A stretch of 64,000 bases of DNA from a virus. Numbering within the stretch: the first letter of the stretch is position 1; every line of letters begins with the position of its first letter. The stretch lies in the IMG/VR virus record IMGVR_UViG_3300010373_000003, positions 28,896 to 92,895 of that record. One strand, written 5' to 3'. Shown piece by piece: positions 6,550 to 56,518 of the stretch. Made by a program: the position numbers and the translations under genes. The notes under the pieces were generated by a model. The model searched no databases, had not been told where the DNA came from, and saw only the letters and a list, made by a program, of their open reading frames with translations.

Positions 6550-7339
6550 GTTAGACAATGACTTTAATATAGATCATGGTGATTGGATACCTCGTGTTGG
6601 TGCGTGGATTATAGATGCTATGGGTCAGCTAAATGTTCTTCGTAAGAAACGTAGTAAAATAAAGCTAGATGTTCATAACTGTATAGCTTATTCTAATTGT
6701 CCTATTAATAGTCCTAATCTTATAGTTACTGATTCTAATGGTTGCCCAATTGTCAAACATAAATCTAATGCTAGTGGTTGTTGTTCTTCCTCTACGGGGG
6801 AGGTAACAAAGCTAGGTGATGTAACTCCCTCAACGGTAGATGCTATCTATAATCCTAATGCTGCTTATGTCCCAGATCATACTGTAGCTGAAACTGTCAA
6901 TGGTAGTAATAAACCTCCTAGATATAATATTGTTAACTATGATAACTCTGGAGGACAACCTAGAAATTATGTTCTATTAGATGATAACAAACTTGAATTA
7001 AACTTTAATACAAGTTGTGTTTATGTTGAAACTGATGTAGTTGAAACTGTATGGAGTAAAACCTATGAATGCGATATTCCTGTTGTTCCTAATGTTGGTA
7101 TTCTTATAGAAGCTATTGGTTTTTATTGTATGTATAAAATGTTAACTCGTGGATATAAACATCCTGTATTTAATCTTAATGCTAGTCAATATGGAACTAA
7201 TCCTTATTATGAGTGGAAGACTCTAAAACCTGAAGCTAAGAGAGCTGTTACTATTGATGCTCAGGGTAATATACTGGTTACTGATGGAGGTCTATTTAAA
7301 AGTTCATTCTTTATCACTACATTCCCCAATAGTAAATAG
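6506..7339 (+). CDS. Tail-hub-type structural protein carrying one copy of the dispersed motif
   Basis: 277 aa. The N-terminus (VEHIIAKLDNDFNIDHGDW) looks like a conserved structural domain. A Cys/Ser-rich linker around residues 90-105 includes SSSTGEV, which is encoded by dispersed-repeat copy 1, so the peptide was probably gained by insertion. The C-terminal half is globular. ATG 6506 overlaps the previous gene by 44 nt; a GTG at 6530 is the alternative start. It ends with TAG and is followed by a 123-nt gap before the 1486-aa gene. Function is inferred from position. Confidence 0.45.
   Translation: MLNNTSISVEHIIAKLDNDFNIDHGDWIPRVGAWIIDAMGQLNVLRKKRSKIKLDVHNCIAYSNCPINSPNLIVTDSNGCPIVKHKSNASGCCSSSTGEVTKLGDVTPSTVDAIYNPNAAYVPDHTVAETVNGSNKPPRYNIVNYDNSGGQPRNYVLLDDNKLELNFNTSCVYVETDVVETVWSKTYECDIPVVPNVGILIEAIGFYCMYKMLTRGYKHPVFNLNASQYGTNPYYEWKTLKPEAKRAVTIDAQGNILVTDGGLFKSSFFITTFPNSK
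6785..6804 (+). repeat. Dispersed GC-rich motif, copy 1 (forward)
   Basis: TCTTCCTCTACGGGGGAGGT matches the consensus. It is in frame and codes for SSSTGEV. About 20 nt downstream, CCTCAACGG (6828-6836) matches the core CCTCTACGG at 8 of 9 bases and could be a decayed partial copy or chance. Confidence 0.85.
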
Positions 7340-16663: not shown

Positions 16664-19600
16664 ATGGATATTAATGACTTTTTAAATAACGGAGTTACGG
16701 TTAAGAACCCTAATTATAAGAAACCCACTAAGAGAGATCCTAGTGGGTCTCCTCGTTTTATACAATCTGGTGATTACAATGCAGCTGTTGATCGTGATAG
16801 TCGTATTGGTGGATTTCTTGCTGAAAATAGTTATGATCTAACAGGTCTTAACAATGACGAGAATAAGTATGCTGATTATGATGTCCGTATTAACCCAGTT
16901 AATACTAAAGATGAACTTGATCAACAACGTGCTAAGAACCAATCTGCTTGGGAACAAACAGGTAGACTTGTTACGCAAGCTGTAGGTAATGAAATAGTTC
17001 TAGGTACTGCTTTAGGATTATCCAATCTTGTAGATATGGGTGTTAATATTGGTAAAGAGGCTGGAAAAGATGATTATACTAATCCTTTTAGTACTTTCTT
17101 AGAAGGTAAACAAGATGAGATTAGAAAAGCTTTTGAGATATACCAAGAGAATCCTAATGAGACTTTTCAAGTTGGAGACTTTGGATGGTGGGCAGGTAAT
17201 GCTGTAAGTGTTGCTTCTACATTATCTATGCTTATACCTTCAATGGCAGTTACTAAAGGTTTAGGTGCAGCTGGTAAATTTGCTAAACTTGAAAGACTTA
17301 GTACTGGTATTGCTAAAGCAGCTAGTGGTGTAGGTCTAACAAAGAATACTGCTACATTAGCTAGAGCTATTAACTCTGGTGCTGAAATAGGTACCGCAGC
17401 GTTACTTAGTAGAACAATGGAAGGATATCTTGAAGCTAGAGGTGTTTATAAGGAAACTTATGATAAATCTTTAGGTAAACTTGAATCTATGACTGTTGAT
17501 GAGAAAGCTAAGCTTTTTAAGAATAATCCTCAGTTTGTTGGAATGTCTAATGAAGAAATGGCTAGTAATATGTCTAGTTTTTCTGCTGATGAAACCTTTA
17601 AGAATGATTATGCAATGTTACTATTTGATATTGCTCAATTTAAAGCTTTAGGTTCTATGTGGAAAGGTGTTGCTAATAAAGCAGTTAACTCTACTCTAAG
17701 AACAGCTAATAGAAATGCTATTGCTGGACTTGCTGATGATGGAGCAGCTGCTATTGGAAACATGGGATTCTTTGCTAAACGTGCTGAGATTATTAAACAT
17801 GCTATAAAGAATCCTATGAGTAGTCTTACAGCTATTCAACTTAGTGAAGGTCTTGAAGAAGGTTATCAAGGAGTTCAAACAGAGAAAGGTAAAGAGATTG
17901 CTGAAAAGATGCTTGATCCTAATTTTAATGCTAGAACTCTTGAAAGTTATCTTAAAGATGGTGCTATATGGGAACAAGCATTTTGGGGAGTAGTTGGAGG
18001 AATGGCTTTCCAATCTATAGGTACTGGTGTTGGTAATTTAGCTACAGCTGTTAAAGGTAAAGTTAATAAACGTACTATGTCTGAAGAAGATTATGCTCTT
18101 TCTCAAATGACTGATGAAAAGATCAGAGAACAAGAGATTGTAGGTCGTCAGGCTCGTATGCAAGACTTTACAGAGAGTATGCAGCTTCTTAATAATGGTA
18201 AGAATCCTTTTGGTTATAAGATTGATCCTGATACTAAACAACCTATTCTAGCAGACGGTAGTAAAGTCAATGAAGATGTTAGTCAAGAAGAAGCTGAATT
18301 GCTTAAGACTCAACTTACTAATGATTTTGTTACTAATATGGTATTAGATGCTACTGATAAAGGTAATTACGATCTATTCAAAGAATATGTTACTGATCAG
18401 AACTTTGATAAGTTCTTTCAAGATGCTGGACTAGAGTCTAACTCTGGTGATAAATCTTTTAGTAGAATGTTAGTTGATAAGATGGATCAAACATATGAAG
18501 AATACAATGGTGCTCTTTATGATGTTATGAATTCTATTAGTGTAGAGAATGAAAGTGTGGCTAAGATTGTGGCACGAAGTATTGCTAGAAGAAAACTACA
18601 AGTATCAGACTTATATAATAGTTCTGATGATCTAGCTAATCAAATAGCAACTAACGCAGATACTACTGATTATATAGATTATGAAGAGAATCAAAGAGTT
18701 AAATATGTAAAAGATCGTATAGCTGAAATAGATAAAAAAGAACAAGGTCTTCAAGAAATGTTAACTAATAAACAAATTAGTTCTCAAGCTGTAGATCAAA
18801 TTATTAAAGAAAATAATATTAGACGTAATCAACTTCTAGCATTTGCTTCTACTGGTAATATGTTTGGTAACCCTGATGTTATAAGCAATATCTTAAGTTC
18901 TAATATTAATGATGCTAATACTGGTGAATTCTTAGCAGAGTTTAATAAGTTCTTAGCAACTATTGATCAAGATGTTAAACCCGGTACTCCTAAGAAGTCT
19001 GTTCAAGATATTGTTAAAAAGAAGATTGAAGTAGATGATCATTTAGATTATATTGAGAAAACATTACCTACTACACAATCTAACTATCAAACAGAATATG
19101 ATGATGTTGCTAGAAATGTAGATAGACTTACTGTTGAAAGATATGATAAAGCTGTAGACATTGTAGGAGAATATATAGAATCTCAACCAGATCTAGATAC
19201 AGCTCATAACAATGTTATGACTAATAATGTTCCTGCTAATATAAAGGAACAATTAGATATACTTAAACTTGGACATCATAGTACTTCTAAATATACTAGT
19301 CAGATTAATTCTATATTCAGAGAAGTTAACAATGATAGAACAGCAGCTGCTGCTGAAGCTAGAAATGTTAATGTTGATAATACTGTTACTAATGATACTA
19401 CAGCTGAAAATGATATACTTGATATAGATGGTGTAGTTGCTGAAACTGACAATAGAGAATCTGTCACTGAGTCTTCCTCTACGGGGGAGGTTATACAATC
19501 AGATGTATCAAAACCGGCTGCTGTTGAAGAAGTAGTTAATCCTGAAACATTTATTGCTCCTTTTGACATAGTTGAAGAAGTTGCTTCTTTAGATAAAGCT

Positions 19601-22600
19601 ACTGAAAGTGTTATCAATGATCAAACTAATGATTTTATATTAGACAATGATGCAAGAGCTGTAGGTTTAGCAAGTAGTATTACTTTTAATCTATTTAAAA
19701 CTTCTCGTAATCTATTTGATAATCTAGAAGGTAAAGATGTTAATAGTTCTGAATTTAATAATATTGTTGATATAGTTGCTGATGATTTATTTACACAAGG
19801 TGTATCTAGAGGTTATACTAGACAAGCTGCTGTAGATGGTATTAGAATGGCAATGAATATGATACATCGTAGACTTAGTTCTAAGAATATTAGTGGTGCT
19901 GATATGTTTAAAGTATTAGCTGATCAGCTTGCTAATAAACAAAGAGTTGAAGTTGATAGTGAAGGTAAAGCTTCTACTACTACTCTTATTCCTGATAGTG
20001 AATTTAATCAAGTTATTGATCAGTTCATTGATAATTATATTCAAAATAGAGGAGTATATACTGTTAAAGGATTTAAGACTATTATTAATGTTGAAGATTT
20101 GTTTAGAGAACTATTAAATAATGATGGTATTACTTATGAGCAAGCTAAACATGTATTCTTTAATATAGCTGATTATATCAGAGCAAATAATCCTAAGTAT
20201 ATATTTATTAATAAGACTGATCTTAATAAGAATCTTAAGACTCCTAGTACTTTTTTTAATAATCTTATTAATAATAAATCAACTGTTGAAACAGTAGATA
20301 GTTATATGCATATAGCTGCTCCTTCTAATAAACCTGAAGGTTATGATAAAGCTGTAAATGAAGCTATTAATGGAGAACCAGTTGTTATTAGTTATTTTGA
20401 AGGAGAACGAGGTACTAGTAATAACTCTATTTCTATTAAAAGAAATGGTATTGAGATTGGTTATCTTGGTTCTGTTCAACCTAATCCTATTAATACTGGT
20501 TATAAATTAAAGAGACAGAATCAAGGTTTTGTTTATGATCTTGTTAATAACAATGGTAACATTGAAAGTAATTTAGATAAACTATTTATACCTCTTATTA
20601 ATAGAGAAACTACTAATTATTCTTATTTAATGGATATTGCTTATAAGCAATTTGCTTATGAAAGTGCTATTAAAAATGGATCTTCTAGTCAAGATATTAC
20701 TTCTGATGAAGTGAGAGACATTGTACATAATGCTATGATTAAATCATTAGTTGCTTCAGGAGATATTAAAATACCTGCTGATAAGATTACTGATAAGATG
20801 AAGGCTAAGTATATACTTAATCAAATTAATAACATTATCTTTTATGATAATGCTGCGATTACTACTCCTTTAATATTAGAGAGTTATGCTTATTGGAAGT
20901 CTTCTACTTTTAATAATTATGTTAATACTCATAAGATACAACAAGGTCTTGATACTAACAAAAAGATTAATACTAAGCTTGTAAATGTTGCTACTGGTAA
21001 AGTATTATTAGATAATACTAATCATAATATTTCTGATATAGGTTTTACTTATGAACAAAACCCTATTATGATAGTAGATGCTAATGGTAATATTATCAAT
21101 GAAAAAGCTAATACTAGTTATAGCAATGTAGCTGGATTTGAAGTAGGCACTATGGGTATGTTGATTACTGATAATCCTAGTGCTCCTATTATAGCTTTAT
21201 TTACAGAATCTAATAATGTTTCTAGTAATAAAGAACTTGCTAATAGAGTATATTCTGAACTTACAGATTTACTTACAGGTTTTCAAAATAGAGAAGTTAG
21301 TTTTGATAAACTAGCTACTTCATTAGGAGATATGTTTAGTGGTCCGGGTATTAGAAGTAATAATCTATTTAGTGGTTATAGTGTTATTAAAACTAATGAT
21401 AGAATAGCTCTTAATATACAAGGTCGTAAAGGAGAGTATAATCTTATTGTTCATAAGTTTGAAAAAGGTTCTAATACAGAAGGAACTGGTATTACTCATA
21501 TACCTAATGGTGATAAGAGTAAAGCTAATAGTTCTGTTACTACTAGTAAATCTTTTAATAATGCTATTGCTAAAGAGATTGTTTCTAATCTTACTTTTAA
21601 TAAAACATTCTATGCTATTAACAATAAGAATGTTGATAATGATAAATCTAATCAATATCTGTATAAAGAAGGAGGTAAACTAATAATTGAAATAGGAGGT
21701 AAGAAAGATAGTTATAATAGTTTTGGTCAGTTTGTTTTGACTAATAATGCTTTTAAGACTAATCAAGGTAAAAATAAAGATGGTGGTTTCTTTGACACAA
21801 CTGATGCTGTTAAGTCACTTTACATCAATACTGCAATCATTACCTCGCCCGTAGAGGAAACACCATTGACAGATCGTAATAGAACTGCTTCTGATGTTAT
21901 TAAATCAGCTACTAAGACTGAGAGTGTTAATACTTCTGAAATACTAAGTTTAGCAGGAGTTGAAGAAGATAAGATTGCTGTTCTTACTGGTACTAATCAG
22001 TTTGGTATAGAACTTATTCCTAAGGAATCGTACTTTGATAATCGTGCTACTAAAGCTGAAGCTTATTATAGTAAAGGTAAAATGTACTTTACTAATAAAG
22101 GTGCTAATAATATTAGAAGAAGTCCTAATAACCTTATGAGACTTCTTATTCATGAAAATCTTCATGCTAAGTTTGAAGAACAAGGTTTGTTTCAACAAGC
22201 TGGTATTGTAGATGATCTTATGAATACTTATAATAGTTTTATTGAAGCTGTTAATAATGATACTACAAGTGCTGAAGTTAAAGTTATTAAAAATTGGATT
22301 GAAACTAATAAATTTAATCCTATTGATTATATTAGTACTTTATCTGTCGAACAACAAAGAGCATGGATTAATCGTAGTGATGCTGATAAAGCTGCTCAAT
22401 TTGCTGAAGAATGGTTAGTTGAAAGTCTTACTCAACCTTCTATTATTAGATATCTTAATAATACTATTTATACTGGAGGAGATGTTTCTGTTGAAGGAAT
22501 TGATAATAGTGCTAAGACTATATGGCAACGTATTATAGATGTTCTATTAAAATTATTTGGTAGAAATAGTGGAAATATAAAAAATAATACTATATTAGCA

Positions 22601-23002
22601 CAACAGTATGCTATACTAGGTCGCCAGAACGATGTTAATGTAGCTACTGTAACTGATACTAATTATAATACTCCGGGAGAAACTCCATTGGAGAATGTTA
22701 CTGATGTGCCATTAATAGGAGATACACAAGTTGAAGATACTACTGATCTAGGTTTTGAGAATGAGAGCAAAAGGTTCGATGAACAAAGTGATGTAGATGA
22801 TCTTGATTTTGCTGTTACTTCTATGATAGAAGATGCTGATGAAGTTAGAATTGCCACTAGAGATATTAGTCCTAACCCTAATATGAGTGGTGTTCAAGTT
22901 GTTACTGATATGAATAAATATGTCAACCAATTCCCTGTACAGGATAGGCCGAGAATAAGCGAAATGCTTACGTCTGCTGAACTTAAATTTAGTTGTCAAT
23001 AG
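16664..23002 (+). CDS. Giant virion cargo protein with HExxH metalloprotease motif
   Basis: 2112 aa. Residues ~170-270 contain hydrophobic Gly/Ala-rich helices (VSVASTLSMLIPSMAVTKGL and AEIGTAALLSR) typical of ejection proteins; a second such helix (VVGGMAFQSIGTGVGNLATA) lies near 445. HENLH at 1830-1834, in RLLIHENLHAKFEEQ, is a zinc-protease motif; a distal Glu ligand would be needed for gluzincin activity and is not certain. Linkers near residues 937-942 and 1728-1732 are encoded by repeat copies 3 and 4. Gap 9 nt from the previous gene; stop TAG. The protease may mature cargo or act during entry. Confidence 0.55.
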   Translation: MDINDFLNNGVTVKNPNYKKPTKRDPSGSPRFIQSGDYNAAVDRDSRIGGFLAENSYDLTGLNNDENKYADYDVRINPVNTKDELDQQRAKNQSAWEQTGRLVTQAVGNEIVLGTALGLSNLVDMGVNIGKEAGKDDYTNPFSTFLEGKQDEIRKAFEIYQENPNETFQVGDFGWWAGNAVSVASTLSMLIPSMAVTKGLGAAGKFAKLERLSTGIAKAASGVGLTKNTATLARAINSGAEIGTAALLSRTMEGYLEARGVYKETYDKSLGKLESMTVDEKAKLFKNNPQFVGMSNEEMASNMSSFSADETFKNDYAMLLFDIAQFKALGSMWKGVANKAVNSTLRTANRNAIAGLADDGAAAIGNMGFFAKRAEIIKHAIKNPMSSLTAIQLSEGLEEGYQGVQTEKGKEIAEKMLDPNFNARTLESYLKDGAIWEQAFWGVVGGMAFQSIGTGVGNLATAVKGKVNKRTMSEEDYALSQMTDEKIREQEIVGRQARMQDFTESMQLLNNGKNPFGYKIDPDTKQPILADGSKVNEDVSQEEAELLKTQLTNDFVTNMVLDATDKGNYDLFKEYVTDQNFDKFFQDAGLESNSGDKSFSRMLVDKMDQTYEEYNGALYDVMNSISVENESVAKIVARSIARRKLQVSDLYNSSDDLANQIATNADTTDYIDYEENQRVKYVKDRIAEIDKKEQGLQEMLTNKQISSQAVDQIIKENNIRRNQLLAFASTGNMFGNPDVISNILSSNINDANTGEFLAEFNKFLATIDQDVKPGTPKKSVQDIVKKKIEVDDHLDYIEKTLPTTQSNYQTEYDDVARNVDRLTVERYDKAVDIVGEYIESQPDLDTAHNNVMTNNVPANIKEQLDILKLGHHSTSKYTSQINSIFREVNNDRTAAAAEARNVNVDNTVTNDTTAENDILDIDGVVAETDNRESVTESSSTGEVIQSDVSKPAAVEEVVNPETFIAPFDIVEEVASLDKATESVINDQTNDFILDNDARAVGLASSITFNLFKTSRNLFDNLEGKDVNSSEFNNIVDIVADDLFTQGVSRGYTRQAAVDGIRMAMNMIHRRLSSKNISGADMFKVLADQLANKQRVEVDSEGKASTTTLIPDSEFNQVIDQFIDNYIQNRGVYTVKGFKTIINVEDLFRELLNNDGITYEQAKHVFFNIADYIRANNPKYIFINKTDLNKNLKTPSTFFNNLINNKSTVETVDSYMHIAAPSNKPEGYDKAVNEAINGEPVVISYFEGERGTSNNSISIKRNGIEIGYLGSVQPNPINTGYKLKRQNQGFVYDLVNNNGNIESNLDKLFIPLINRETTNYSYLMDIAYKQFAYESAIKNGSSSQDITSDEVRDIVHNAMIKSLVASGDIKIPADKITDKMKAKYILNQINNIIFYDNAAITTPLILESYAYWKSSTFNNYVNTHKIQQGLDTNKKINTKLVNVATGKVLLDNTNHNISDIGFTYEQNPIMIVDANGNIINEKANTSYSNVAGFEVGTMGMLITDNPSAPIIALFTESNNVSSNKELANRVYSELTDLLTGFQNREVSFDKLATSLGDMFSGPGIRSNNLFSGYSVIKTNDRIALNIQGRKGEYNLIVHKFEKGSNTEGTGITHIPNGDKSKANSSVTTSKSFNNAIAKEIVSNLTFNKTFYAINNKNVDNDKSNQYLYKEGGKLIIEIGGKKDSYNSFGQFVLTNNAFKTNQGKNKDGGFFDTTDAVKSLYINTAIITSPVEETPLTDRNRTASDVIKSATKTESVNTSEILSLAGVEEDKIAVLTGTNQFGIELIPKESYFDNRATKAEAYYSKGKMYFTNKGANNIRRSPNNLMRLLIHENLHAKFEEQGLFQQAGIVDDLMNTYNSFIEAVNNDTTSAEVKVIKNWIETNKFNPIDYISTLSVEQQRAWINRSDADKAAQFAEEWLVESLTQPSIIRYLNNTIYTGGDVSVEGIDNSAKTIWQRIIDVLLKLFGRNSGNIKNNTILAQQYAILGRQNDVNVATVTDTNYNTPGETPLENVTDVPLIGDTQVEDTTDLGFENESKRFDEQSDVDDLDFAVTSMIEDADEVRIATRDISPNPNMSGVQVVTDMNKYVNQFPVQDRPRISEMLTSAELKFSCQ
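16723..16748. repeat. 8-bp inverted repeat near the start of the 2112-aa gene
   Basis: ACCCACTA (16723-16730) and TAGTGGGT (16741-16748) pair perfectly around a 10-nt loop, inside codons ~20-29. Being GC-richer than its surroundings, it could fold in the mRNA close to the start codon. Confidence 0.45.
19472..19490 (+). repeat. Dispersed GC-rich motif, copy 3 (forward)
   Basis: TCTTCCTCTACGGGGGAGG is identical to copy 1 over the core and in the same reading frame (SSSTGEV). It lies in an acidic, low-complexity linker of the 2112-aa protein. Confidence 0.85.
21843..21859 (-). repeat. Dispersed GC-rich motif, copy 4 (reverse)
   Basis: CCTCGCCCGTAGAGGAA is the reverse orientation with the GCCC variant. 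It codes for TSPVEET in the 2112-aa gene, 2.4 kb after forward copy 3. Confidence 0.85.
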
Positions 23003-26100: not shown

Positions 26101-29100
26101 AAAGTAATACTCATAATCTAATAGATCGTGCTCACTATAATGGTGATAGTGTTGTAAAAGATGGAGTACTTACTGGTAATTTCTTTAACTTTATTAGACT
26201 ATTTGAAACACAAGGTTATAAAGCTAATGAAGAGATTAAGAATGCTTTCTTCCTCTACGGGGGAGATACAGCTAACGGTATTGATCCACTGCTCGTTAAG
26301 AATAAGAAAGGTGATCTAACTCTTAATATTAATAGAAAAGATCTTATTGCTATTAATAATAATCATATAGAGCTTAGTATATCTGATAATAACTTAGAAG
26401 TTATTGATTCTGTTGTTGAGAATTGGCTTAATAATTATTATAATGAAGTACTAGATAAAACTTCTCAGTTTAATACTATTATTGAAGATAGATATTCTAA
26501 TAATGATATTGTTGACTATGCTGTTAACAATGCTATTATGGAAATGAACTTTGATGATGTGTTTGAAGGTGATAGTAAGTTCTATAAAGGACCTCAGGAT
26601 TTCCTTAAGAGAGCAAAAGAAGTTCAAGCTGCTGGTAAAGCTTATACTGGTTTTAATATTAATGAAGCTATTGGTGGTCCAGTTCATCCTATTAAAGATG
26701 CAAGTGGTGGTGAGATTCCTATAATGGTTAATGGAGTTGAAGTTGCTAAGGCTAGAAATGGTTTTAAAGGTGTTACTATTTATAATACCGTTAGACCTTC
26801 TCAAAGTGCTGGTCAAATAAAACAAGAACTTGTAGGTATACTTACTCCTAGTGTTGGTAAGACTGAAGCTAATCGTATTGCTACTGAAATATCTCAAGGT
26901 TATTTTGATTCTACTAAAGTCAATGATGCTCAATCCTATATTACTCTTGATGAGTTTATAGCTAGACGTCATGCAGATGGTACATTGAATGATTATCAAG
27001 ATTTACTTGCTCAATTAACTGATGATAAAATCAGTGTTGGAGATATGAATCTTAAAGGTATTAATGCTCGTATTCAAGTACAGAAGAACTTCTATTTTGA
27101 TAAACAGTTTGATGATAATACTGGAACCTTTTATCCTAGACAGATTAAGAATGCTGAATTTGTTCTTATTCCTAAGTTGATTAAAGGTACTGATCTTGAA
27201 ACTCTTTATAACATAATGAAAGCTAATGGTGTTGACCAAGTTAATACTGTTGAAGCTTCTAAAGCTGCTAAAAAGAATATACTTACTTTTTGGGATAATC
27301 AAGGTGTTGCTAATGCTGAAGCGTTTGATGCTAGTCTTAAAGCTGATAACAATATAGCTATTGAAGACTACTACTATCAGTATCTTTATAAACAACAAGA
27401 TGTTGCTGATCATATGGTTAATGAGAAGAACAAAGCTGGTATTCAAATCATGAAGAAAATCATTGATAATGCTAATGCTGAAGTTCAAGGAGATATTGAT
27501 AATTTCTTTAATAGCTATGTTGCTAATATTAAAGATGACTTTAATATGCTTCTTAATCGTATGGGTTGGAGAGTTGAAAATGGTTCTTTAGTTGATAGTA
27601 GTGGTAAGACTAATGCTGATGGTAAGAATGTACTTCAATTTGAAGATTTTTATAAGAAAGCACGTGTTGAGGCTCAACGTCTTGGTATGGATTCTAACTT
27701 TATAGAATATCTTACTCCTGATCAGTTTGGTTCTCCTGTTATGCCTAACTATATGAACAATGTCTCTTCTAAGTTAGAAAGTATTGCTCAAAGTATATTT
27801 AATAATGGTGTTACTAGACAGACTCTTCCTGGATGGCATGCTGCTCAGGTTACTAGTGTTGGACATGGTGTTCCATCATTAGGAGAAGATGGTGTATGGA
27901 GAACTCTTAAGTATCACCCTCAAGTTACTAGAGAAGATGGTACAGTAGTTCAAGAAGCTTATGCTGAAGTTATGCTTCCTAGATGGAGTACTTTAATTCC
28001 TAAAGATTATGATATTTCTAAGTTAGAATCTGAAGGTATTGATATTCATTTAGGTTATCGTATTCCTACTGAAGGTAAACAATCTATTAGTAATCTAAAA
28101 GTTGTTGCTTTCTTAGATGAGGTTTATGGTTCTACTATTATGGTTCCTGATGAATGGGTAACTCAAACAGGTAGTGACTTTGACGTTGATAGTGTTTATG
28201 GTATTTCTCATGAAATATATAAAGACAGAGAGGGTACTATTAAGAAAGTACAGTTTGATAACTCTACAGAAGTTAAAGATGTTGAACGTAGATATGTTAA
28301 TTATATTAATGGAGCTATAGAACATCGTGTAGATAAAGATATTATACCTGATGAGTTTATAACTGATAAAGTTAATGAAGCTAGAGATCAAATTAAAGAC
28401 TTAGATATTGTTAGAAAAGAATCTAAATATCTTGGTGAATTGATTTCTAATCATGGTAGTATTTATAGACAACTTCCTACTGAGGTTCAAGATCAAGTTA
28501 AATCTATTAATAGAAGATTTAGAACTGGTAATATATATGATAGATACAATGCTTTAGCTGCTACATTTGAAGTACTATCTTCTCAGGAAACTGGAGAACT
28601 TAAAGATGTTTATGAAGAATTTGGTTCTTATAGTGAGGCTATTGCTAATGCTTATGAATATATTAAAAGTATAGATACTGATTCTATTCCTAAGTTTAAT
28701 AAGTCTGAAGTTATTAAAGGTATATTTGAAAATGCTCGTATTGAGTATTTAAATAAAGTTAAGAAAGCTGCTAAAGCTTCTAATCTTGTTACTTATGAAG
28801 AGTTTGCTAATTGGTCTATAGAAGATCAGAATAGTCGTAAGGCTCGTAATAATAGGATATTAGATAGTATGATTAATGTTATGAATAATAGTAATTCTCG
28901 TGAAGAGAACTATTCTCGTAGTAATTTTGATGATCTATCTAATGCTATGAAGAAAATGAATGCTCTTCGTGGTGCTTCCTCTATTGTTCGTAGTGCTTAT
29001 AATCCTTTAGATCAAGTTGATTTTATGGAGAATGCTATGAGTGGTGCTACTCTTAAAGCTTTCTCTGTTACTAGAGATACTTTTAATTCTGTTAATAACT

Positions 29101-32100
29101 ATACAAAATCTAAACTAGGTGAAGGTCATGAAATTAAAGTTGAGTATGATCTTAATCAATATGATATTAAACATTTAAATAGCGCTTATAATGGTGTACA
29201 ACTTGATAAATCTCGTAATGTGGCTATTGTTATGCATAATAGCTTGGCTAATAGTAATAACAACAGGAACGTTGTTGGTAAAATCCTTACAGTTTATAGT
29301 TCTCAAACTACAGCTCATATTCTAGATGCTGTTAAAGAAGGTACTATTTTCAATGAGAATGATTATACCTTTGGAACATTTAAAACTCTTATTGATGTAG
29401 GTATTGATTATGAAACTGCTATTGGTTTCTTAATGCAACCAGGAATTACTAAGATTGTAGATGCTTACTTCCAAAGTAAAAGTATTTATATTAATAGTAC
29501 TTCTAACCCTATTAATGTTGCTATTAAGTCTATAGCTACTGATCTAGGTATTACTATTGGAGGACGTGCTATTGATGACTATACCCCTGTTAAGAGTGTA
29601 GTACAAAGATTGAGTACTTACCCGAGATTGCAAATGGCGTATAGACAGCTGTTTGCAGCTAATCTAGGATATAATAATACTATTGACGTACAATCACAAA
29701 ACCTTAATGGTTTAATGCTTCAGAACCGCTTAAAAGGGGTTGAAATAACTAATACTTTAACATTAACACTAGATCAACAACAGTATCAAAATGCTGCTTT
29801 TGATTTAGCTATGATTGCTAACTTTGATAAGTATCGTAAGACTACTCGTAATATTGAAGCTTTAGCTAGAGTTAGTAATCCTGATAGGTTTGGTGCTAAG
29901 CAAACAATTAGAGGAACTAGAGTTACTTTAAATAATATTGCTAAATATGCTACTGATCCTAATGATATAGTTGGTGAAACTATAATGGTTGGAAATAAGA
30001 ATATTATTCAATCTTTATACCCAGGTTTTAATACTAGAGAAGGTATAGATATTACTAATAGTTCTTATCCATATCTTGCTGCGTTTTTAAAGTTTGCTAC
30101 TCAACCTAGTGTTGAAGCTAATAGTCAGTTGTTTCCTACTGAAAGTAATAGTTATAATGCTATTACAGATACTGTTCAAGCTAGAATGGGTATTAATTTT
30201 ACTGATGAACAGTATAAAGAATATAAACAATATATGATTTCTAATGTTTATGCTGGTGTTCCATTTTTAACATCACCTTTAACATTGAATGAATATGGTT
30301 TAATTACTTTAGATAATGTAGCTATTGAAGCTGAAGTTAATTTAAATAATCAATATTGGGATGTTGAACGTTCTAGAATATTTGGTTACGATGTTACCCA
30401 AAGTGGCAATATTACTATTAAAGATATTAATAATCCTAATGAGGAAGAAGTATTTAATTTTAATCAACTTACTCCTGCTCAGAAAGTTATATGGATTCAA
30501 CGTAATTTTAATGAAGGTAGAGGTGTATTTGATTTCTTAGATGTTAATACTTTTAATCAGTATGAGTTTAAGAATAAAGGATTTAGTAGTCAATCTATTA
30601 AATATAGTGATCAAATTGATGATATTGAAGAAGTGTATGTTGCTTTTAGAGATAGCTTCTTTAATAAGAATCCTTTAGTTAGACTTGCTACTATTGACTT
30701 AATTAAGTATTCTTTTGTTGCTGAAGGGTTTAAATTTAAACGTGGAAGTATTAGTAAAATTATTACTAATGATACGTTGTATTCTAATCTAGAAGATAAA
30801 GGTATTAATCTAATTGAAGCTATACAGCAACAATTTATGATTTATAATAATCCTCTTGAAGCTACTACTCAAAAGTTTATTGATAAGTTTATACGTAGTC
30901 ATAGTGAACTTGTTAAAGAAGTTTCTATTCCTAAAGGTAAAACTGATAAACAAGGTAATGAGAATATTGGTCGTAAGTTTAATAGACAAATACAAGGAGA
31001 GAATATAGTTTTTATTCCTTTTGCTGAGTCTACTAAAGAGTTACTAGAACATCTTAACATTATTGAAGATAGTCCTAAAGGTTATGTTAGAATTGGTAGA
31101 TATATCAATGATACTCAACGTAGAACTACTTTATATAAAGTTACTAATACTAGACAAGGTGTTTATTTAACTCCTTTGAATATACTTGAACGTAATGAGA
31201 CTTCTGAGTATTCAGTTAATGCTAAAAATAACTTATATAAAGCTACTGAATATTATGATGCTATAATTAATTTATCTGTAGATAATGGAGTTCCTGTTAA
31301 TGAGTTACTTAAAGATGGTAAAACTGTTGAACAACTTAATATTCTTAAAGATCAGTTTACTATAACTCCTCATAAGTCTAAACATATAATTGAAAGTGTT
31401 GAAAACACTAATGAAGTTATTAGAGTTATGCAGTATGGTACTAATATTGAGCAAGCTGAGACTGCTAAGTTTGTATCTGACATTGTAGATTACATAACTT
31501 CCCCTGTAGAGGAAGCAGGTAACTATGGCGTTATTAAAAATGATAATGGTTTTATTAATTCTCTTATCCCTCATGGTGTTTCTGTTATTCAGAACATACC
31601 TAATGGTGAAGATATTATAACTGTTAAGATTACTAAACATACTAAGAAGAATGGTTTAAGTAAACAATTTGAATATGTACTTAAAGGAGACAAACGTGGA
31701 GATCTTGCTAAGGTTAAACCTGAAGAAAGAAAGGCTTTACAGAACTCTATTGATGCTAAAAGTATTAGACCTACATTATATAAGATTGAAAGGGTTACCA
31801 GTGAACAAGAAAGAGAGAACTACGAAGAACTTAGAAAACAAGTAGAAGATCAAGCTGCTTCTCAAATGAATGCAGTTACTAATCTAATTGAAGACTTTGA
31901 TGTAGATGTTGTTTTCAATTATACTGAAACTGATAAGGTTGCTAAAGATATATTTAATGAACTTAATAAACGTGCTTTATCTAATGATGATAAACGTGCT
32001 GTTAAATTTAAGAAAGCTATGGATATAGCAGGTATAGATAGGACTAGTGCTAATTCTATACATGATAATAAGAGAAATATATATACTTCTGCTGCTAAGT

Positions 32101-37317: not shown

Positions 37318-37412
37318 CTTCCTCTACGGGGGAGGTACAGCTCTCTATTACTAGAGGTTCAATCAAGACGGTTAAGACGATTAAGATCATATAACCTTGC
37401 CCGTAGAGGAAG
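37318..37412. mobile_element. 95-bp MITE-like element bounded by dispersed-motif copies 7 and 8
   Basis: The left end CTTCCTCTACGGGGGAGGT (37318-37336) and the reverse complement of the right end, CTTCCTCTACGGGCAAGGT (37394-37412), agree at 17 of 19 bases. The 57 bp inside hold a small hairpin (CTCTA/TAGAG, 37343-37356) and three 9-bp near-repeats (TCAATCAAG, ACGGTTAAG, ACGATTAAG; 37359-37385). No convincing target duplication flanks it and there is no ORF of substance. It lies between two - strand genes. A non-autonomous element, an iteron-like site or a regulatory cassette are all possible. Confidence 0.5.
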
Positions 37413-37436: not shown

Positions 37437-37598
37437 TTACTTAAACTTCTCTATAAGATACAGCTTATATAACTCTAAAGTAGTAAGATGTCCTTTTGTA
37501 TGAACATACCATTTACCTAGTTTAGAGTCATAACTAAACCAACTATCTTTAGTAAGTTTATCACCAATCCATTGAGCAAAGCCTATAGTATTAGTCAT
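37437..37598 (-). CDS. Small early protein of unknown function
   Basis: 53 aa from the ATG at 37596-37598 (MTNTIGFAQWIGDKL and onwards), chosen because it overlaps the upstream stop by 8 nt; an upstream start would add 17 hydrophobic residues read in another frame of that gene. Aromatic-rich (WFSYDSKLGKWYV), soluble and slightly basic. No family recognised. Confidence 0.6.
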   Translation of the reverse strand: MTNTIGFAQWIGDKLTKDSWFSYDSKLGKWYVHTKGHLTTLELYKLYLIEKFK

Positions 37599-46780: not shown

Positions 46781-47533
46781 TTAATAACATTTAAGCATAT
46801 GATTAGCAAAACCAACAGCTTTATAAAATAGCTGCATTTTAGTACCATTATTCTGAATAGGAAAAGTAGATTTAAAATCAATATCTTCACTATCATGTTT
46901 AGCAACTTGATCAGTACTTTCTCTTCTGATCTCAATGTCTCCCCCGTAGAGGATATGCTTTACTATAGCGTTGTTCTCATTCCTGTATCTTACATCAGGG
47001 ATAATACAAAGACCAGTAGTTTCAGCAATATCAGCAGCTCTATACATAGTAGAATTAATCCAAAGATTATTACCAAGTAGTTTTCTACCAATTTCAGTAC
47101 CAAAATATTGCATAAGAGTACGAAGCCTAATAACAGGAGTTTTACCCTTTCTTTCAATATCTTCAATAATATAATTTAAATTATATTTAACAGTAAGAGA
47201 TTCTATAGTAATACCTACATATTCACTAAAACTAGCTTCAGCTTCTGTAAGAAACCTACGCTGACTAAATGAATACCACTCTACATCTTTCTTATCTCTA
47301 TCGTCAAAATACTTACGAGGAATATTATAAATAATAGACAAACAATCCTTCATAGGATCAGCGAAATGAGTAATACGATGTTCATTAGTTAAATCCCATT
47401 TAACACGATGAGTTAACCAATCTGAATAATTAGCTTTAGCTACACCTTTATAAAAGATATAATTAAGCATAGAAGCAAAAGTATCTTTACCTGAATTAAG
47501 TTGTCCAGATATACCAACAATATAACTTTTCAT
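46781..47533 (-). CDS. Deoxynucleoside monophosphate kinase
   Basis: 250 aa. GISGQLNSGKDTFASML holds the P-loop (Gly10-Lys16-Asp-Thr). The later HFADPMKDCL and PVIRLRTLMQYFGTE segments fit T4 gp1-type dNMP kinases, which phosphorylate dNMPs for phage DNA synthesis. ILYGGDIE near residues 194-201 is encoded by repeat copy 9, in the C-terminal part between a beta-strand (CIIPDVRYRNE) and the next. The start overlaps the upstream stop as ATGA. Confidence 0.8.
   Translation of the reverse strand: MKSYIVGISGQLNSGKDTFASMLNYIFYKGVAKANYSDWLTHRVKWDLTNEHRITHFADPMKDCLSIIYNIPRKYFDDRDKKDVEWYSFSQRRFLTEAEASFSEYVGITIESLTVKYNLNYIIEDIERKGKTPVIRLRTLMQYFGTEIGRKLLGNNLWINSTMYRAADIAETTGLCIIPDVRYRNENNAIVKHILYGGDIEIRRESTDQVAKHDSEDIDFKSTFPIQNNGTKMQLFYKAVGFANHMLKCY
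46938..46953 (-). repeat. Dispersed GC-rich motif, copy 9 (reverse on +)
   Basis: TCTCCCCCGTAGAGGA on the + strand; read on the coding strand it gives ILYGGD in the dNMP kinase gene. Confidence 0.8.
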
Positions 47534-48377: not shown

Positions 48378-49598
48378 TTAATCCTCCAGTATAATAACAG
48401 TTTTAATGTGAAAAGGAACTTGTTCAACACCGCTTCTTTCTCCATACTCAACAAGAGCTTTTCTGTACATGTATTTATCTTTATTAGCAATAACACTACG
48501 TTGATAATCAAATGATCCATTAACACTAGCTTTAAAAGTAGCATTATTAATATCATTCTTAAGTACTAATAAAGGAAGATCTCTCTTTTCATCTTCAGGT
48601 ACAATATCAACTATAGTAAACTTACCATCAGTCATAGCTTTAAACTTCCACATAGCAGAATTACGTTTACCAAACTGATATTCATCATTAGGATTACGAC
48701 CAACAATGCCTTCAAATCCTAATTTAATAAACTTATTTCTAAGACTTCTAGCAGAACTATCTGAAGTACAAAGATAATCAGGAACTCTAACTAATCTTTC
48801 AGTATTATTAGAGTGGCTACCTTCTTTATTTAAATTAATAGCACAATATCCTATATGTTTATCAAGAGTAGATAGTCTAGCATTTTGAGTCATATTAGCA
48901 ACAGCTATATCATAACACCAGAACTGTAAAAGTTTATTCTTAGGATCTTTAGGGTCTTTAACAAGATGATTTATCTCATTAACAGCATGACCATAAAGAT
49001 ATACTTCTCCATCAAGAATATAATCTTCATTTATCATTAAGTTCAATAAATCAATAGGTAATACTTTAAGTAAATATTCTTCAAGATCACCTAGACTATC
49101 CCAATAGTTACCTTCACGAGATTGAAAGGTTAAAGCAATAGGTTTAAATAAATCACCTTCGTTATTCTTAGCACCAATACCACATCTAAGACCATTAATC
49201 TTAGGTTGAACTATATAAGAACTTTGTTTATTGAATATCTTATTATTCTTATTATCATACAGTTTAGCAAGCATATGAAGCATAGCACCAGTATGACTTT
49301 GTCTATCATAAGGCAGATAAGTATCAAGATAAGCTATTACTTGTGTTTCCTCTACGGGCAAGGTATTGCTATCAGCAACGTCAGCAAGTAACATATATCC
49401 ACTCTTACGTTTAGTATTAACCCGAGACTTTAATTCATCTTCAAGAGTTCTCTTAGTATGGATAATTTCAGAACTAATAGTTTTCCCTAATATCCCATAA
49501 TATAATTCTAAACAATAAGCAGAATTATTAACTCTAGCATACCATACAGTAGGTTGACCTGCATTATTTCTCCTATAAAGAGCTTTATTATAATCCAT
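48378..49598 (-). CDS. ATP-dependent DNA ligase
   Basis: 406 aa. PKINGLRCG (Lys133 as AMP acceptor, KxNGxR motif I), LDGEVYLYG (motif III), EGIVGRNP (motif IV) and WKFKAMTDGKF (motif V) define the nucleotidyltransferase core; an OB-fold follows. Seals nicks in phage DNA. The N-terminal ~110 residues are an added domain, and LPVEE at 80-84 within it is encoded by repeat copy 10. The start overlaps the preceding gene by 11 nt. Confidence 0.85.
   Translation of the reverse strand: MDYNKALYRRNNAGQPTVWYARVNNSAYCLELYYGILGKTISSEIIHTKRTLEDELKSRVNTKRKSGYMLLADVADSNTLPVEETQVIAYLDTYLPYDRQSHTGAMLHMLAKLYDNKNNKIFNKQSSYIVQPKINGLRCGIGAKNNEGDLFKPIALTFQSREGNYWDSLGDLEEYLLKVLPIDLLNLMINEDYILDGEVYLYGHAVNEINHLVKDPKDPKNKLLQFWCYDIAVANMTQNARLSTLDKHIGYCAINLNKEGSHSNNTERLVRVPDYLCTSDSSARSLRNKFIKLGFEGIVGRNPNDEYQFGKRNSAMWKFKAMTDGKFTIVDIVPEDEKRDLPLLVLKNDINNATFKASVNGSFDYQRSVIANKDKYMYRKALVEYGERSGVEQVPFHIKTVIILED
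49346..49364 (+). repeat. Dispersed GC-rich motif, copy 10 (forward on +)
   Basis: TTTCCTCTACGGGCAAGGT, the CAAGG variant, identical over 18 bases to the right end of the 95-bp element. On the coding strand it gives TLPVEE in the ligase. Confidence 0.85.
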
Positions 49599-50461: not shown

Positions 50462-50897
50462 GATAATTATCATTATAAACCATCACCTTATCAGGCTTAC
50501 CAAGAAGGCAATGATTATACTTTAACCAAGCAACAGGATCATTACAAGGTCCCCATTTAATAACCTTTTCTAATTTACCCATCTCATAATTATCAACTAG
50601 ACCAAATAGACCTTCTTCATAATTAAAATTAGAATAAATCAATCCACGATTATTAGTTTCTACAAGACCATATCTCTTAATAGAATCTATATCAGAAGCT
50701 TTATTAAAATCTAAATCTCCATAGAAATATATAGCAGACTTATCACTATACTTATCTAGTCTATCTTCTTCTTTTTGAGTAATAGCTCGCATATACACAT
50801 TAAGACCTCCTTTATTAGGACTATCAGAATGGACTAATATTACCTTCTTTCTTATCCCTAATAAGTTTACTGTATCGCCTAACAAAACTTGTTTCAT
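50436..50897 (-). CDS. Hypothetical protein overlapping the primase gene
   Basis: 153 aa. VILVHSDSPNKGGLNVYMRA and IKWGPCNDPVAWLKYNHCL are distinctive but not recognised. Its start overlaps the primase 3' end by 74 nt, unusually long for this genome; a later start would cut into what looks like its first beta-strands. Confidence 0.45.
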   Translation of the reverse strand: MKQVLLGDTVNLLGIRKKVILVHSDSPNKGGLNVYMRAITQKEEDRLDKYSDKSAIYFYGDLDFNKASDIDSIKRYGLVETNNRGLIYSNFNYEEGLFGLVDNYEMGKLEKVIKWGPCNDPVAWLKYNHCLLGKPDKVMVYNDNYHDFFIGRR

Positions 50898-52029
50898 ATT
50901 CTTTTATATTAGTAGTTATATTAATAATAGGATCAACGATCCCTTTAATTCCTTTTTTTTCTCTCCACTCGGAGAAGTCTTTTGCACCATCTTTAACAGG
51001 TATAAGAACAGGCATTATAATAAAGTTGTTACGAAGCCATATAGTCTGCATCTTTCCAACTCTATCATTATCCATAAGAGATAGCATAATACCTCCTTTT
51101 TTTAGTTTACCATGTAACCAATCATATTCACTCTGCCTAAGTTTATAAGTTTCATGAGGTAGATTGATAACGCCGATGTTGACTTTAATGGCTCCCCCGT
51201 AGAGGAAGTTAATCTCTTTAATAGCTGCTTTTATAGCAACTCTATCTTTAGTAGACTTAGTAATAACAATTATATCATACTCATCTTGATTCAATGTATA
51301 AATACCTTCAAGATGATTACAATTAGTTATAAATCTAGTAAAACCTTTTTCACGTTTAGGAAAATAAAGTTTAATATTATAAAGTCCATTACGATCTTGA
51401 CCAAGTAAATAAGCATAACAAGGGTCAGTAGGATTATAATAATATTTAGGATCAGGATTAACATTTCTATTAATATAGTACTGATCTATAGGATATATAA
51501 ATTCAATATTTAACAAATGAGGACTAACACCTATACGTTTCCAATCATTAATATCATTATTATTCCATTCTCGAATAACCAATTCAATATTAGGTTTAGT
51601 ATTACGTAAATTAACAATAGCAGTGTTTATATCTGTAATAAGATTAATATCTTTTTCTTGTCCATAAAATATATCTTTAAACATAAACGTGATATGTCTA
51701 AGAACTTTAAGGAAATCTTCTTTATTGGATATATTAATAGGTCTATTATAAGTAGTAGTCATAACTAATGCTACAAGATCAAAACAGTCACCCCAGAAAT
51801 ATCCAGCAAAGTCTTTAAATTTAAGTCTATCCTGAGTATATTTAAACCCACAAGTAGGATTAATATCATATCTAATAGGAGAATGTATAAAGTCTCCAGT
51901 ATCAATACAATGTTGAACTATAGCATCAGAAAGATTTAAATAAGTACTAAAAATACTAACTTGACTTACTTTACTAAGAATATATTTTTTATTAAGAGTT
52001 CCAGTATTAATATTTCTAGCCATTGGCAA
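50824..52029 (-). CDS. DnaG-type primase with Toprim domain
   Basis: 401 aa. The N-terminus (SPIRYDINPTCGFKYTQDRL and a later FAGYFWGDCFDLVALV) resembles the primase zinc/CHC2 region although only scattered Cys remain. The Toprim domain shows YDIIVITKSTKDRVAIKAA (~255) in place of the usual EG motif and SLMDNDRVGKM (~316) as DxD. It synthesises replication primers. INFLYGGAIK between these motifs is encoded by repeat copy 11. It is followed by genes overlapping its end and preceded by the SSB terminator. Confidence 0.75.
   Translation of the reverse strand: MPMARNINTGTLNKKYILSKVSQVSIFSTYLNLSDAIVQHCIDTGDFIHSPIRYDINPTCGFKYTQDRLKFKDFAGYFWGDCFDLVALVMTTTYNRPINISNKEDFLKVLRHITFMFKDIFYGQEKDINLITDINTAIVNLRNTKPNIELVIREWNNNDINDWKRIGVSPHLLNIEFIYPIDQYYINRNVNPDPKYYYNPTDPCYAYLLGQDRNGLYNIKLYFPKREKGFTRFITNCNHLEGIYTLNQDEYDIIVITKSTKDRVAIKAAIKEINFLYGGAIKVNIGVINLPHETYKLRQSEYDWLHGKLKKGGIMLSLMDNDRVGKMQTIWLRNNFIIMPVLIPVKDGAKDFSEWREKKGIKGIVDPIINITTNIKEYETSFVRRYSKLIRDKKEGNISPF
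51191..51210 (-). repeat. Dispersed GC-rich motif, copy 11 (reverse on +)
   Basis: GCTCCCCCGTAGAGGAAGTT on the + strand; the coding strand reads NFLYGGA within the primase Toprim region. Confidence 0.85.
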
Positions 52030-53185: not shown

Positions 53186-54013
53186 TTAGTCTTCTTGAGA
53201 CTCCTCAGCAACAGCACCTACACGAGCAGGAACTTTATCTGAATAATCACCAAGTACTAAAGCTTTAACAGTAACTTCTTCGTAACCATTAGACATAACA
53301 ACATCTTGAATGTTATCAAGATCAATTTCAAATACACGGTTTAAAGCAGTAGCTTCTTCACCCATATCAGCTTTCAATTGTTTCCACACGTTAGAATCAG
53401 TGAAAGTAAGAGAAGTACCCGGGCCAGTAACACCACCTGGGTTAGCTAATTTAGAACCTTTGAATTTAGGTAAATCCTTAGGAATAACAAACGCTGTTAA
53501 AATATCAGCTTGTTCTTCAGGAGTAATACCTTCACGAGATAAAGCAGCTTTAACTTCTTCGTTATCGCTAGCTAATGCTCCTTCAAGCATAGCTTCAAAC
53601 TGTTGTGCAACAAATTTAAGTTTATCACCTTTAGATAGACGCTCAGCAGTAGTTTTAGCTAAACCTTTAGCGTCAAATTCTTTAACACCTTTAGCAATAG
53701 CCCAGCTATCAAATTCTCTATGGATAGCAATTAATGCTTCAGGAGAATCAATTTCTAAACCAGCTTCTTCACAGAAAGCAACAAGCGAAGGATCTTTTTC
53801 ACGAATAGCAGCATCAAGTTGATCAATATTAGATAAGAACATGATGTTATCACCATGACCAATACCTAATACTTTACTAACAATAGAAGTTAATCTAAAG
53901 TTACCTTCAGTAGATACAGCAATTACTTGAGGTTCAGAAGTAGTGTTACGTTGACCAGCAGTTACAGCACTAAATCCAAAAGATAATCCGGCAGTTGATT
54001 TTACAGTTTTCAT
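53186..54013 (-). CDS. Abundant-type early protein of unknown function
   Basis: 275 aa, with less AT-biased codons than its neighbours and its own terminator, both signs of high expression. The N-terminus (LTSIVSKVLGIGHGDNIMFL) could hold an AbrB-like or small beta-barrel fold; the middle is helical and acidic; the C-terminus ends in AVAEESQED. It lies between RecT-like and SSB genes, so a DNA-binding or replication-accessory role is plausible but not shown. Confidence 0.5.
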   Translation of the reverse strand: MKTVKSTAGLSFGFSAVTAGQRNTTSEPQVIAVSTEGNFRLTSIVSKVLGIGHGDNIMFLSNIDQLDAAIREKDPSLVAFCEEAGLEIDSPEALIAIHREFDSWAIAKGVKEFDAKGLAKTTAERLSKGDKLKFVAQQFEAMLEGALASDNEEVKAALSREGITPEEQADILTAFVIPKDLPKFKGSKLANPGGVTGPGTSLTFTDSNVWKQLKADMGEEATALNRVFEIDLDNIQDVVMSNGYEEVTVKALVLGDYSDKVPARVGAVAEESQED

Positions 54014-55132: not shown

Positions 55133-56518
55133 TTATAGTACTACTGCATCATTATCATTATTGTAATCAATTTCGTCCTCATCATCAGGTATAACTTTAA
55201 TCAATGATGACTCCTTTTGATTACTAAGGTGTTTGTTCTCAATTGTACCTCTACAATAAACCTTATAATTAATCGTTGGTACACTATTAAATGTAACATC
55301 AGTAAAACGCGTCTTAAAAGCAATAATGTCATCTACAAAAGGTGAGGTGAAAATCACTAAATCAATAGCTGTTTTCAGCTTCACATTAGAACTACTTTTG
55401 ATCGACAATACATTGACTTGCTTTGAGTTAAACGCTGTCAGATTCATTGTACTGATCGACTGGGCGCCTACTATTTTAGGTTGACCTTTACTAGCACCAC
55501 TCTTAACAAGAACAGGTTCATTAGTAGCACTATCAATAAGTATAGAGCTTTCTATATTATCATGATAGTCAGCACATTTAAGATCAGTAAATTCATTTAG
55601 GTATTTAGTAACCTTAGAAGCAAATTCTCCACGTTTAGACACAATAAGTATTTGCATTGTAGAATGAAAAGTACATATAGCAAGTATACTATGTAGCTTT
55701 GCTTCATTATCAGTAACTAGATCTCTTCTCTGTTTAGTAATAGTAAAGAAATTATTAGCTCTCTCAAATAGATTATTAGGATTATAAATATCATCAATCT
55801 TCTTATTCCATTCAATAGAAGTATTAAGTTCAGAACTCCAACCATTATTCGCAGCTATTTCTTCACGAAATTGAACAGCACTAATGTTTAGTTTAGAATC
55901 ACCATATTTACATTTATCAATGATACTAATATCACCAAATATAGAAACAGATGTAGCAATATATTCATTATACTTTTCGTATAACTCATGATCTTCAGCC
56001 GATAGACTGATTGCAATCCTGCGTTCCTCTACGGGGGAGTAAATGTTATCTGTACGAACAGAATTGTTAGATACAGTAACATGGATGTTAGGTAATATAC
56101 TCCTAACAGAAGTAATATAATTAGAATCCATTATATTCTTAGTAAATATAGAAAGTATAAACTTTCCTTGTCTACTTAAGAAATTAATAAGATCAAGATT
56201 ATCATTAAGACCTACTGCAATGATTAGTTTATAATCATATAAGTAAGAAGTTTTAACATAATCAGCACTTAATATTGTAGTATTATATCCAGCATTAGGT
56301 TTACTAGCTAAAGCATTAATAATAGCAGTTCTAGTTTTAAATGAATCTACAACTATGAATACTTTCACACCGTGAGACTTAATATAAAACTGATCTATAA
56401 GTTTAATAATTAGATCTGCAAAATCAATAGGATGAAAACAATAAACACTTGCTCTACCTCTATTAGCTTGAAATCCATTAATAACTTCTTTAACATACTT
56501 ATCTTGATTAGTTTTCAT
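55133..56518 (-). CDS. SNF2/SF2-helicase-like protein lacking the Walker motifs
   Basis: 461 aa from the ATG at 56516-56518, which overlaps polB by 11 nt. VKVFIVVDSFKTRTAIINAL resembles motif Ia, QILIVSKRGEFASKVTKYLN motif IV, and the region with AIDLVIFTSPFVDDIIAFK and a late Arg (FTDVTFNS) motifs V-VI of SNF2-type helicases that sit next to PolB in crAss-like phages. The expected GxGKT and DExx are not seen, so ATPase activity is doubtful. YSPVEERR near residue 160 is encoded by repeat copy 12. The C-terminus is strongly acidic. Confidence 0.5.
   Translation of the reverse strand: MKTNQDKYVKEVINGFQANRGRASVYCFHPIDFADLIIKLIDQFYIKSHGVKVFIVVDSFKTRTAIINALASKPNAGYNTTILSADYVKTSYLYDYKLIIAVGLNDNLDLINFLSRQGKFILSIFTKNIMDSNYITSVRSILPNIHVTVSNNSVRTDNIYSPVEERRIAISLSAEDHELYEKYNEYIATSVSIFGDISIIDKCKYGDSKLNISAVQFREEIAANNGWSSELNTSIEWNKKIDDIYNPNNLFERANNFFTITKQRRDLVTDNEAKLHSILAICTFHSTMQILIVSKRGEFASKVTKYLNEFTDLKCADYHDNIESSILIDSATNEPVLVKSGASKGQPKIVGAQSISTMNLTAFNSKQVNVLSIKSSSNVKLKTAIDLVIFTSPFVDDIIAFKTRFTDVTFNSVPTINYKVYCRGTIENKHLSNQKESSLIKVIPDDEDEIDYNNDNDAVVL
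56023..56040 (+). repeat. Dispersed GC-rich motif, copy 12 (forward on +)
   Basis: GTTCCTCTACGGGGGAGT; the coding strand reads YSPVEE in the SNF2-like gene. This is the only SPVEE-type copy with the full CCCCCG core. Confidence 0.85.

Follow-up and report, generated by a model that had tools for sequence, protein, structure and literature searches.

A 95-bp intergenic element of a crAss-like phage is one close pair of a sequence signal dispersed on both strands throughout the Intestiviridae

Introduction

The closest known thing to the signal reported here is the group of nick motifs of T5-, phiKMV-, and tf/LUZ24-like phages, which are likewise short, asymmetric, and dispersed, with a maximum of about 14 copies and partly conserved positions (Kulakov 2009; PMC3517423; PMC11780129). 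Unlike the tf/LUZ24 nick motifs, the sites of Intestiviridae occur on both strands, are evenly distributed on each, extend over the whole family, and exist in dialects. Another type of strand-specific site is represented by the ssi sites of the G4 type and of RSF1010, at which a primase starts without the usual helicase loading, and which are present as one or two hairpins per replicon. Intestiviridae, in contrast, have 7 to 24 sites per strand, and the hairpin of a single site is not significant.

Similarities also exist to the stoperators of cluster A mycobacteriophages, where 20 or more asymmetric sites of about 13 bp are distributed over the genome of a temperate phage and read by a phage protein (PMC9283540, PMC6550527). 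However, stoperators are intergenic and follow the direction of transcription, whereas the sites of Intestiviridae are mostly coding and display no strong link to orientation. REP/BIME sequences resemble them in their alternating copies and inverted pairs but are extragenic hairpins of bacterial chromosomes (PMC2817692), whereas the phage sites are mostly coding, hairpin-less, and conserved in place.

Crassvirales encode a DnaG-type primase, and core replication genes such as that for DnaB have been differentially lost in some of their groups (Yutin 2021, PMC7886860). Their exact replication mode has been stated to be unknown (PMC10136315). A literature search yielded no description of the motif, and the site looks like an undescribed signal that is read by the crAss-like phage's own DNA machinery.

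Results

Copies of the site in the source genome

The window, which is the whole stretch of 64,000 nucleotides analyzed here, corresponds to positions 28,896 to 92,895 of a virus record of 92,895 bases. Its capsid and other proteins placed the record with the crAss-like phages, family Intestiviridae. Allowing up to three mismatches, 15 matches to CTTCCTCTACGGG were found in the window, compared with an expected 4.4 ± 2.0, and none of 100 shuffled sequences reached 15. The arm motif had been described as dispersed, and this was confirmed for the whole record, which contains 17 matches at two mismatches or fewer versus 1 for the reversed pattern. An iterated weight matrix identified 18 sites in the record, on both strands and mostly intragenic, with the consensus t.cTTCCTCTACGGGGGAGgTA.Ta..ATCag. 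The site, TTCCTCTACGGGGGAGGTA, is approximately 14 to 20 bp long and is present in about 18 copies across the source genome.

Several of these copies occupy positions that are common to other genomes. They include one at 6786 to 6798 (plus strand, in gene 6506 to 7339; 8 genomes), one at 11603 to 11615 (minus strand, in gene 7463 to 11923; 5 genomes), and two in gene 16664 to 23002, at 19473 to 19485 on the plus strand (11 genomes) and at 21848 to 21860 on the minus strand (10 genomes). The same applies to copies in the dNMP kinase gene (46943 to 46955, minus strand; 3 genomes) and, in antisense orientation, in the ligase gene (49346 to 49358, plus strand; 8 genomes). The giant RNA polymerase gene contains a motif match at 26249 to 26261 on the plus strand and a copy reading CTTCCTCTACAGG at 31503 to 31515 on the minus strand. 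Comparison of the source sequence with Rfam returned sub-threshold matches only, such as a Trp leader at 37482 to 37572 of the window (minus strand), which scored 26.7 bits against a cut-off of 41 and is probably due to chance.

Occurrence in the family and dialects

Variants of the site were the top or among the top over-represented 9-mers in all 14 Intestiviridae analyzed, crAss002 and p-crAssphage, the prototype from the human gut, included. Seed-free word statistics likewise had a site variant heading the over-represented 9-mers in 12 genomes and in three more. The exact 9-mer CTCTACGGG was counted 18, 16, 28, and 26 times in cr3_1, p-crAssphage (BK010471), cr11_1, and cr110_1, respectively, and its reversed pattern 0 times. 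Using weight matrices trained per genome, 428 sites were obtained over the 14 genomes, ranging from 18 to 47 per genome. Control counts were 0 in reversed genomes, where these were run, and no higher than 1 with a training-free pattern. The training-free pattern undercounts GGGC-type dialects, such as those of G002 and ctbg_1, with an overall picture similar to that from the matrices. Ten further IMG/VR genomes contained 10 to 30 pattern matches each, versus 0 to 3 for the reversed-pattern control. Dispersed copies were thus present in every member of the Intestiviridae examined. The motif was absent from crAss001 (Steigviridae) and from cr10_1 and cr6_1 (Suoliviridae). Host assignment via MAGs was discarded; the bins with capsid relatives were all of the Bacilli/Tenericutes type or otherwise mixed, which was judged to be binning noise.

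The dialects were CTCTACGGG, together with CTCCACGGG in p-crAssphage; CTTTACGGGCC in ctbg_1; CTTCTACGGGGG in cr271_1 and G021; TTCTACGGGGG in ctcc615; CTTTATGGGGG in cr107_1 and crAss002; CTTTTACGGGGC in cr8_1; and CTTTACAGGGG in jaberico. Aligned sites read YYYYYYTAYRGGGRR, with about 15 informative positions per site, and vary almost exclusively by transitions. Therefore, the site comes close to a palindrome when read as purines and pyrimidines, but not in its actual bases. Covariation between the two arms, evaluated for all 428 sites, amounted to low mutual information and left a conserved stem unsupported. A weak purine-rich stretch is located 17 to 33 nt upstream on the same strand, reaching a maximum of 72% purine at position −23 (14 genomes), and the sites of some genomes have further weak letters at the 3′ side. 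Immediately 3′ of some sites in p-crAssphage, G021, and crAss002, GC-rich hairpin-like words (GCGAAGC/GGAGCG) were observed.

The 95-bp element

The element at 37318 to 37412 had been reported to carry facing motif copies at its ends, and this is correct. Its left arm (37318 to 37336, plus strand) is the exact copy CTTCCTCTACGGGGGAGGT, and its right arm (37394 to 37412) reads CTTCCTCTACGGGCAAGGT on the minus strand. The arms are complementary at 17 of 19 positions and separated by 57 nt. It also holds that no other pair in the source genome is less than 200 bp apart and that this one is intergenic. As single-stranded DNA, the region of the element, in which a hairpin had been noted, folds far better than shuffled sequences (z = −4.4). 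Single sites, represented by one p-crAssphage and four G000 sequences, showed no such advantage over shuffled DNA (z = −0.5 to −1.2), and the strong fold is therefore attributed to the arms of the element. The three related 9-mers that had been noted between the arms, at 37359 to 37385 with no strand assigned, are weak repeats: identity was at best 7 of 9 in one register and 5 to 8 of 9 in the register originally given. The repeat finder did not call them, and they are probably incidental.

In G002, a relative with about 75% identity, the homologous gap also harbors an opposite-strand pair (89794 on the plus and 89893 on the minus strand), so the element is not a product of chance. Nor is it the parental form of the dispersed copies, as the preliminary description had suggested. 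Aligned sites of cr11_1 and cr110_1 revealed no insertion or deletion of the unit. Furthermore, 42 close opposite-strand pairs were located in many places, in all 14 genomes, and in both convergent and divergent arrangement, so the pair at 37318 to 37412 is not a master copy. An origin-like site had also been suggested as a possibility for it; no feature distinguishes it from the other close pairs. The 95-bp element is one close opposite-strand pair of a YYYYYYTAYRGGGG-type signal that is both genome wide and family wide.

Position, coding context, and conservation

With open reading frames called simply, 78% of the sites were coding and 93 of the 428 were intergenic. Intergenic positions were nevertheless over-used, harboring 22% of the sites versus 6.7% of the genome. 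Relative to the gene, 186 sites had the same and 149 the opposite orientation, indicating no strong link. All reading frames were used except the antisense frame that gives TAG (1 of 149).

Two genes illustrate how the positions are maintained. In the primase gene, 13 of 14 genomes have the site in one shared variable loop (51196 to 51208, minus strand, in the window), where it is read in different frames as FLYGG, PLRG, or LQG. In the SNF2-like gene, where it is antisense (56023 to 56035, plus strand), codon and orientation are identical in all 14 genomes. Between cr11_1 and cr110_1, every site with alignable flanks was in the same position, with no unit gained or lost, and core mismatch was 1.9% compared with about 8% in the flanks. 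On account of this orthologous placement, the frame changes, the lack of indels, and the low divergence of the core, the copies are conserved DNA sites and not insertions. The signal is read as DNA, regardless of genes, frame, and transcription.

Spacing on each strand and close pairs

The gaps between neighboring sites on a strand were more even than random in 26 of 28 strand sets from the 14 genomes (P < 0.05; these P values are not independent, since the genomes are related). The coefficient of variation (CV) of the gaps was 0.25 to 0.6 in most strand sets, versus about 0.9 for random placement. The mean same-strand gap was 4 to 13 kb, corresponding to about one site per 5 kb per strand. 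Evenness was also visible in many genomes with the training-free pattern, with loss of significance in some strand sets. Strand orientation alternated 308 times, compared with 316 ± 6.7 under rotation. Two independent per-strand combs are sufficient to produce this value and therefore fully explain the alternation.

Same-strand neighbors less than 600 bp apart occurred 4 times across the 14 genomes. The 42 opposite-strand pairs within 200 bp compare with 14.7 ± 3.7 expected when one strand was rotated, an enrichment of about 3-fold. It is probably caused in part by the preference of sites for intergenic gaps. It should be noted that records were handled as circular and that spacing and pair figures vary with score thresholds. 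We propose, with confidence evenly balanced between acceptance and doubt, that Intestiviridae genomes carry on each strand an independent, even comb of sequence-specific sites, which act at the DNA level, lie in genes family wide, and co-evolve with a phage protein.

Replication genes and candidate readers

Two proteins encoded in the window are candidates for interaction with the site. The DNA primase (50824 to 52029, minus strand; PHROG 12622, E = 4e-75) is a candidate user. A conserved 275-aa protein, whose gene adjoins that of RecT (53186 to 54013, minus strand), is a candidate binder and was found in 14 of 14 genomes, in cr3_1 via tblastn. It had no convincing match in three motif-less genomes from two families. 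Its structural model was confident (pLDDT of 86.5), without a fold match in the PDB or a detectable DNA-binding fold. An AbrB-like assignment made by eye was dropped, Pfam giving no support. The correlation of dialect distance with protein distance singled out no protein (partial r of 0.22 for the primase and 0.30 for the ligase). The suggestion that the element is a protein-binding hub survives as an inference from the sites being conserved DNA-level signals, with a binder that is a candidate only.

A search of 11 Intestiviridae records and of cr127_1 (Crevaviridae; MT774393, loci L179-L183) turned up no DnaB_C. The cr127_1 genome has its own dispersed repeat of about 40 bp, GAATTTCGGAACACCTCTCGCCCTTGTGGCCATTAAAC, unrelated in sequence and present in 10 copies, 5 per strand. 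In two Suoliviridae with DnaB, a comparable motif was absent. This correlation covers few families, and the other Crevaviridae records are fragments only. A partial exception is crAss001, which lacks the motif and detectable DnaB_C, yet has an annotated replicative helicase. In cr10_1 (Suoliviridae; MT774382, loci L184-L188), TTACTYTGGA and TTACTCAGGA words were over-represented, with 79 matrix matches versus 7 in the reversed control.

Discussion

The even comb on each strand would suit a process on single strands that needs a site within several kilobases, such as priming, nicking, or a Chi-like function. We tentatively favor a strand-specific site for a DnaB-less phage replication machinery, most likely an ssi-like priming site, and give this reading a probability of roughly one in three. 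Phage replication proteins would recognize the site strand by strand, and the DnaG-type primase may start complementary-strand synthesis there without DnaB helicase. If each strand requires one site per several kilobases, surplus sites would decay and the survivors would be evenly spaced. The dialect of each genome may reflect co-evolution with the reading protein, and pairs would form where sites of both strands land in one permissive gap, a step supported by the intergenic enrichment. A strand-specific site is present on each template strand, as in ssi systems; this is consistent with ssi but not specific to it. The template-strand hairpin of ssi sites was not found in the four G000 sequences and one p-crAssphage sequence compared with shuffles. 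The family-wide sites in the primase and SNF2-like genes and the DnaB_C results speak for priming. To our knowledge, no primase uses a site of about 15 bp every 5 kb, which counts against priming, as do the partial exception of crAss001 and the dialect correlation that favors no protein.

The main rival, possible but rather unlikely, is that these are programmed nick sites like those of T5, phiKMV-like, and tf/LUZ24-like phages, where a phage nickase cuts one strand and ligase reseals it. Such motifs are likewise short, asymmetric, dispersed, and position conserved; the phiKMV consensus, CGACxxxxxCCTA/CTCCGG, loosely resembles CCTCTACGGG (PMC3517423); and density is similar, with 14 nicks in the 46 kb of tf. 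Moreover, Intestiviridae encode an ATP-dependent ligase, the divergence of which follows dialect slightly best. However, nick motifs are confined to one strand in tf, phiKMV, and LUZ24, whereas all 14 Intestiviridae genomes have sites on both. Nick spacing is as uneven as random (CV of 0.85 for tf and 0.90 for LUZ24), whereas the combs described here are even on both strands.

We consider it unlikely that the sites belong to a phage-plasmid and bind a protein with an architectural, partition, or silencing role, in the manner of parS or the N15 centromere or of P1 C1 or L5 stoperators. In favor of this reading, p-crAssphage has been suggested to be a phage-plasmid (PMC11652158), the site forms a pseudo-palindrome when reduced to purines and pyrimidines, and opposite-strand close pairs are about 3-fold enriched. 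Condensation or partition, however, would not require strand-specific spacing. Stoperators, moreover, are intergenic and transcription oriented (PMC9283540), unlike these mostly coding sites with no strong link to orientation. The family-specific, conserved 275-aa protein could serve as the binder but is without a detectable DNA-binding fold match.

Directional reading by a recombination enzyme or terminase, i.e., Chi-like or packaging-start sites, appears more doubtful still. Chi is likewise strand-specific and is required on both strands at intervals, and Intestiviridae phages encode RecT, a Dda/RecD-like helicase, and a PD-(D/E)XK exonuclease. On the other hand, Chi is 5 to 8 bp long and host encoded, whereas the sites of Intestiviridae have about 15 informative positions and phage-specific dialects. 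As for packaging, circular permutation has been predicted for crAss002 (PMC10136315), but packaging starts would not require even spacing.

A 95-bp parent pair that spread as a miniature mobile element or as a selfish repeat of the RPE, REP/BIME, or MITE type would fit copies that are dispersed, homogeneous per genome, partly in coding genes, and in inverted pairs, but is very improbable. Close relatives show neither gain nor loss of a unit at the aligned sites, the core is under purifying selection, orthologous positions are kept across the family despite frame changes, and same-strand neighbors within 600 bp are nearly absent. Insertion and REP/BIME readings fail on the lack of unit indels, and the stoperator reading fails on orientation and on the mostly coding location.

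The priming site that we favor and its rivals can be approached experimentally, since crAss002 and jaberico are cultured and the signal is open to testing in them. The signal also flags a coding constraint, whereby variable protein loops are fixed by a DNA site and misread by protein-level analyses. For the Intestiviridae, it offers a handle on replication, segregation, and persistence and predicts where nicks, RNA-primed ends, binding proteins, and recombination joints should be sought. If true, the combs would amount to a novel type of strand-resolved genome organization among the most abundant viruses of the human gut, serving priming, nicking, or another strand-wise process.
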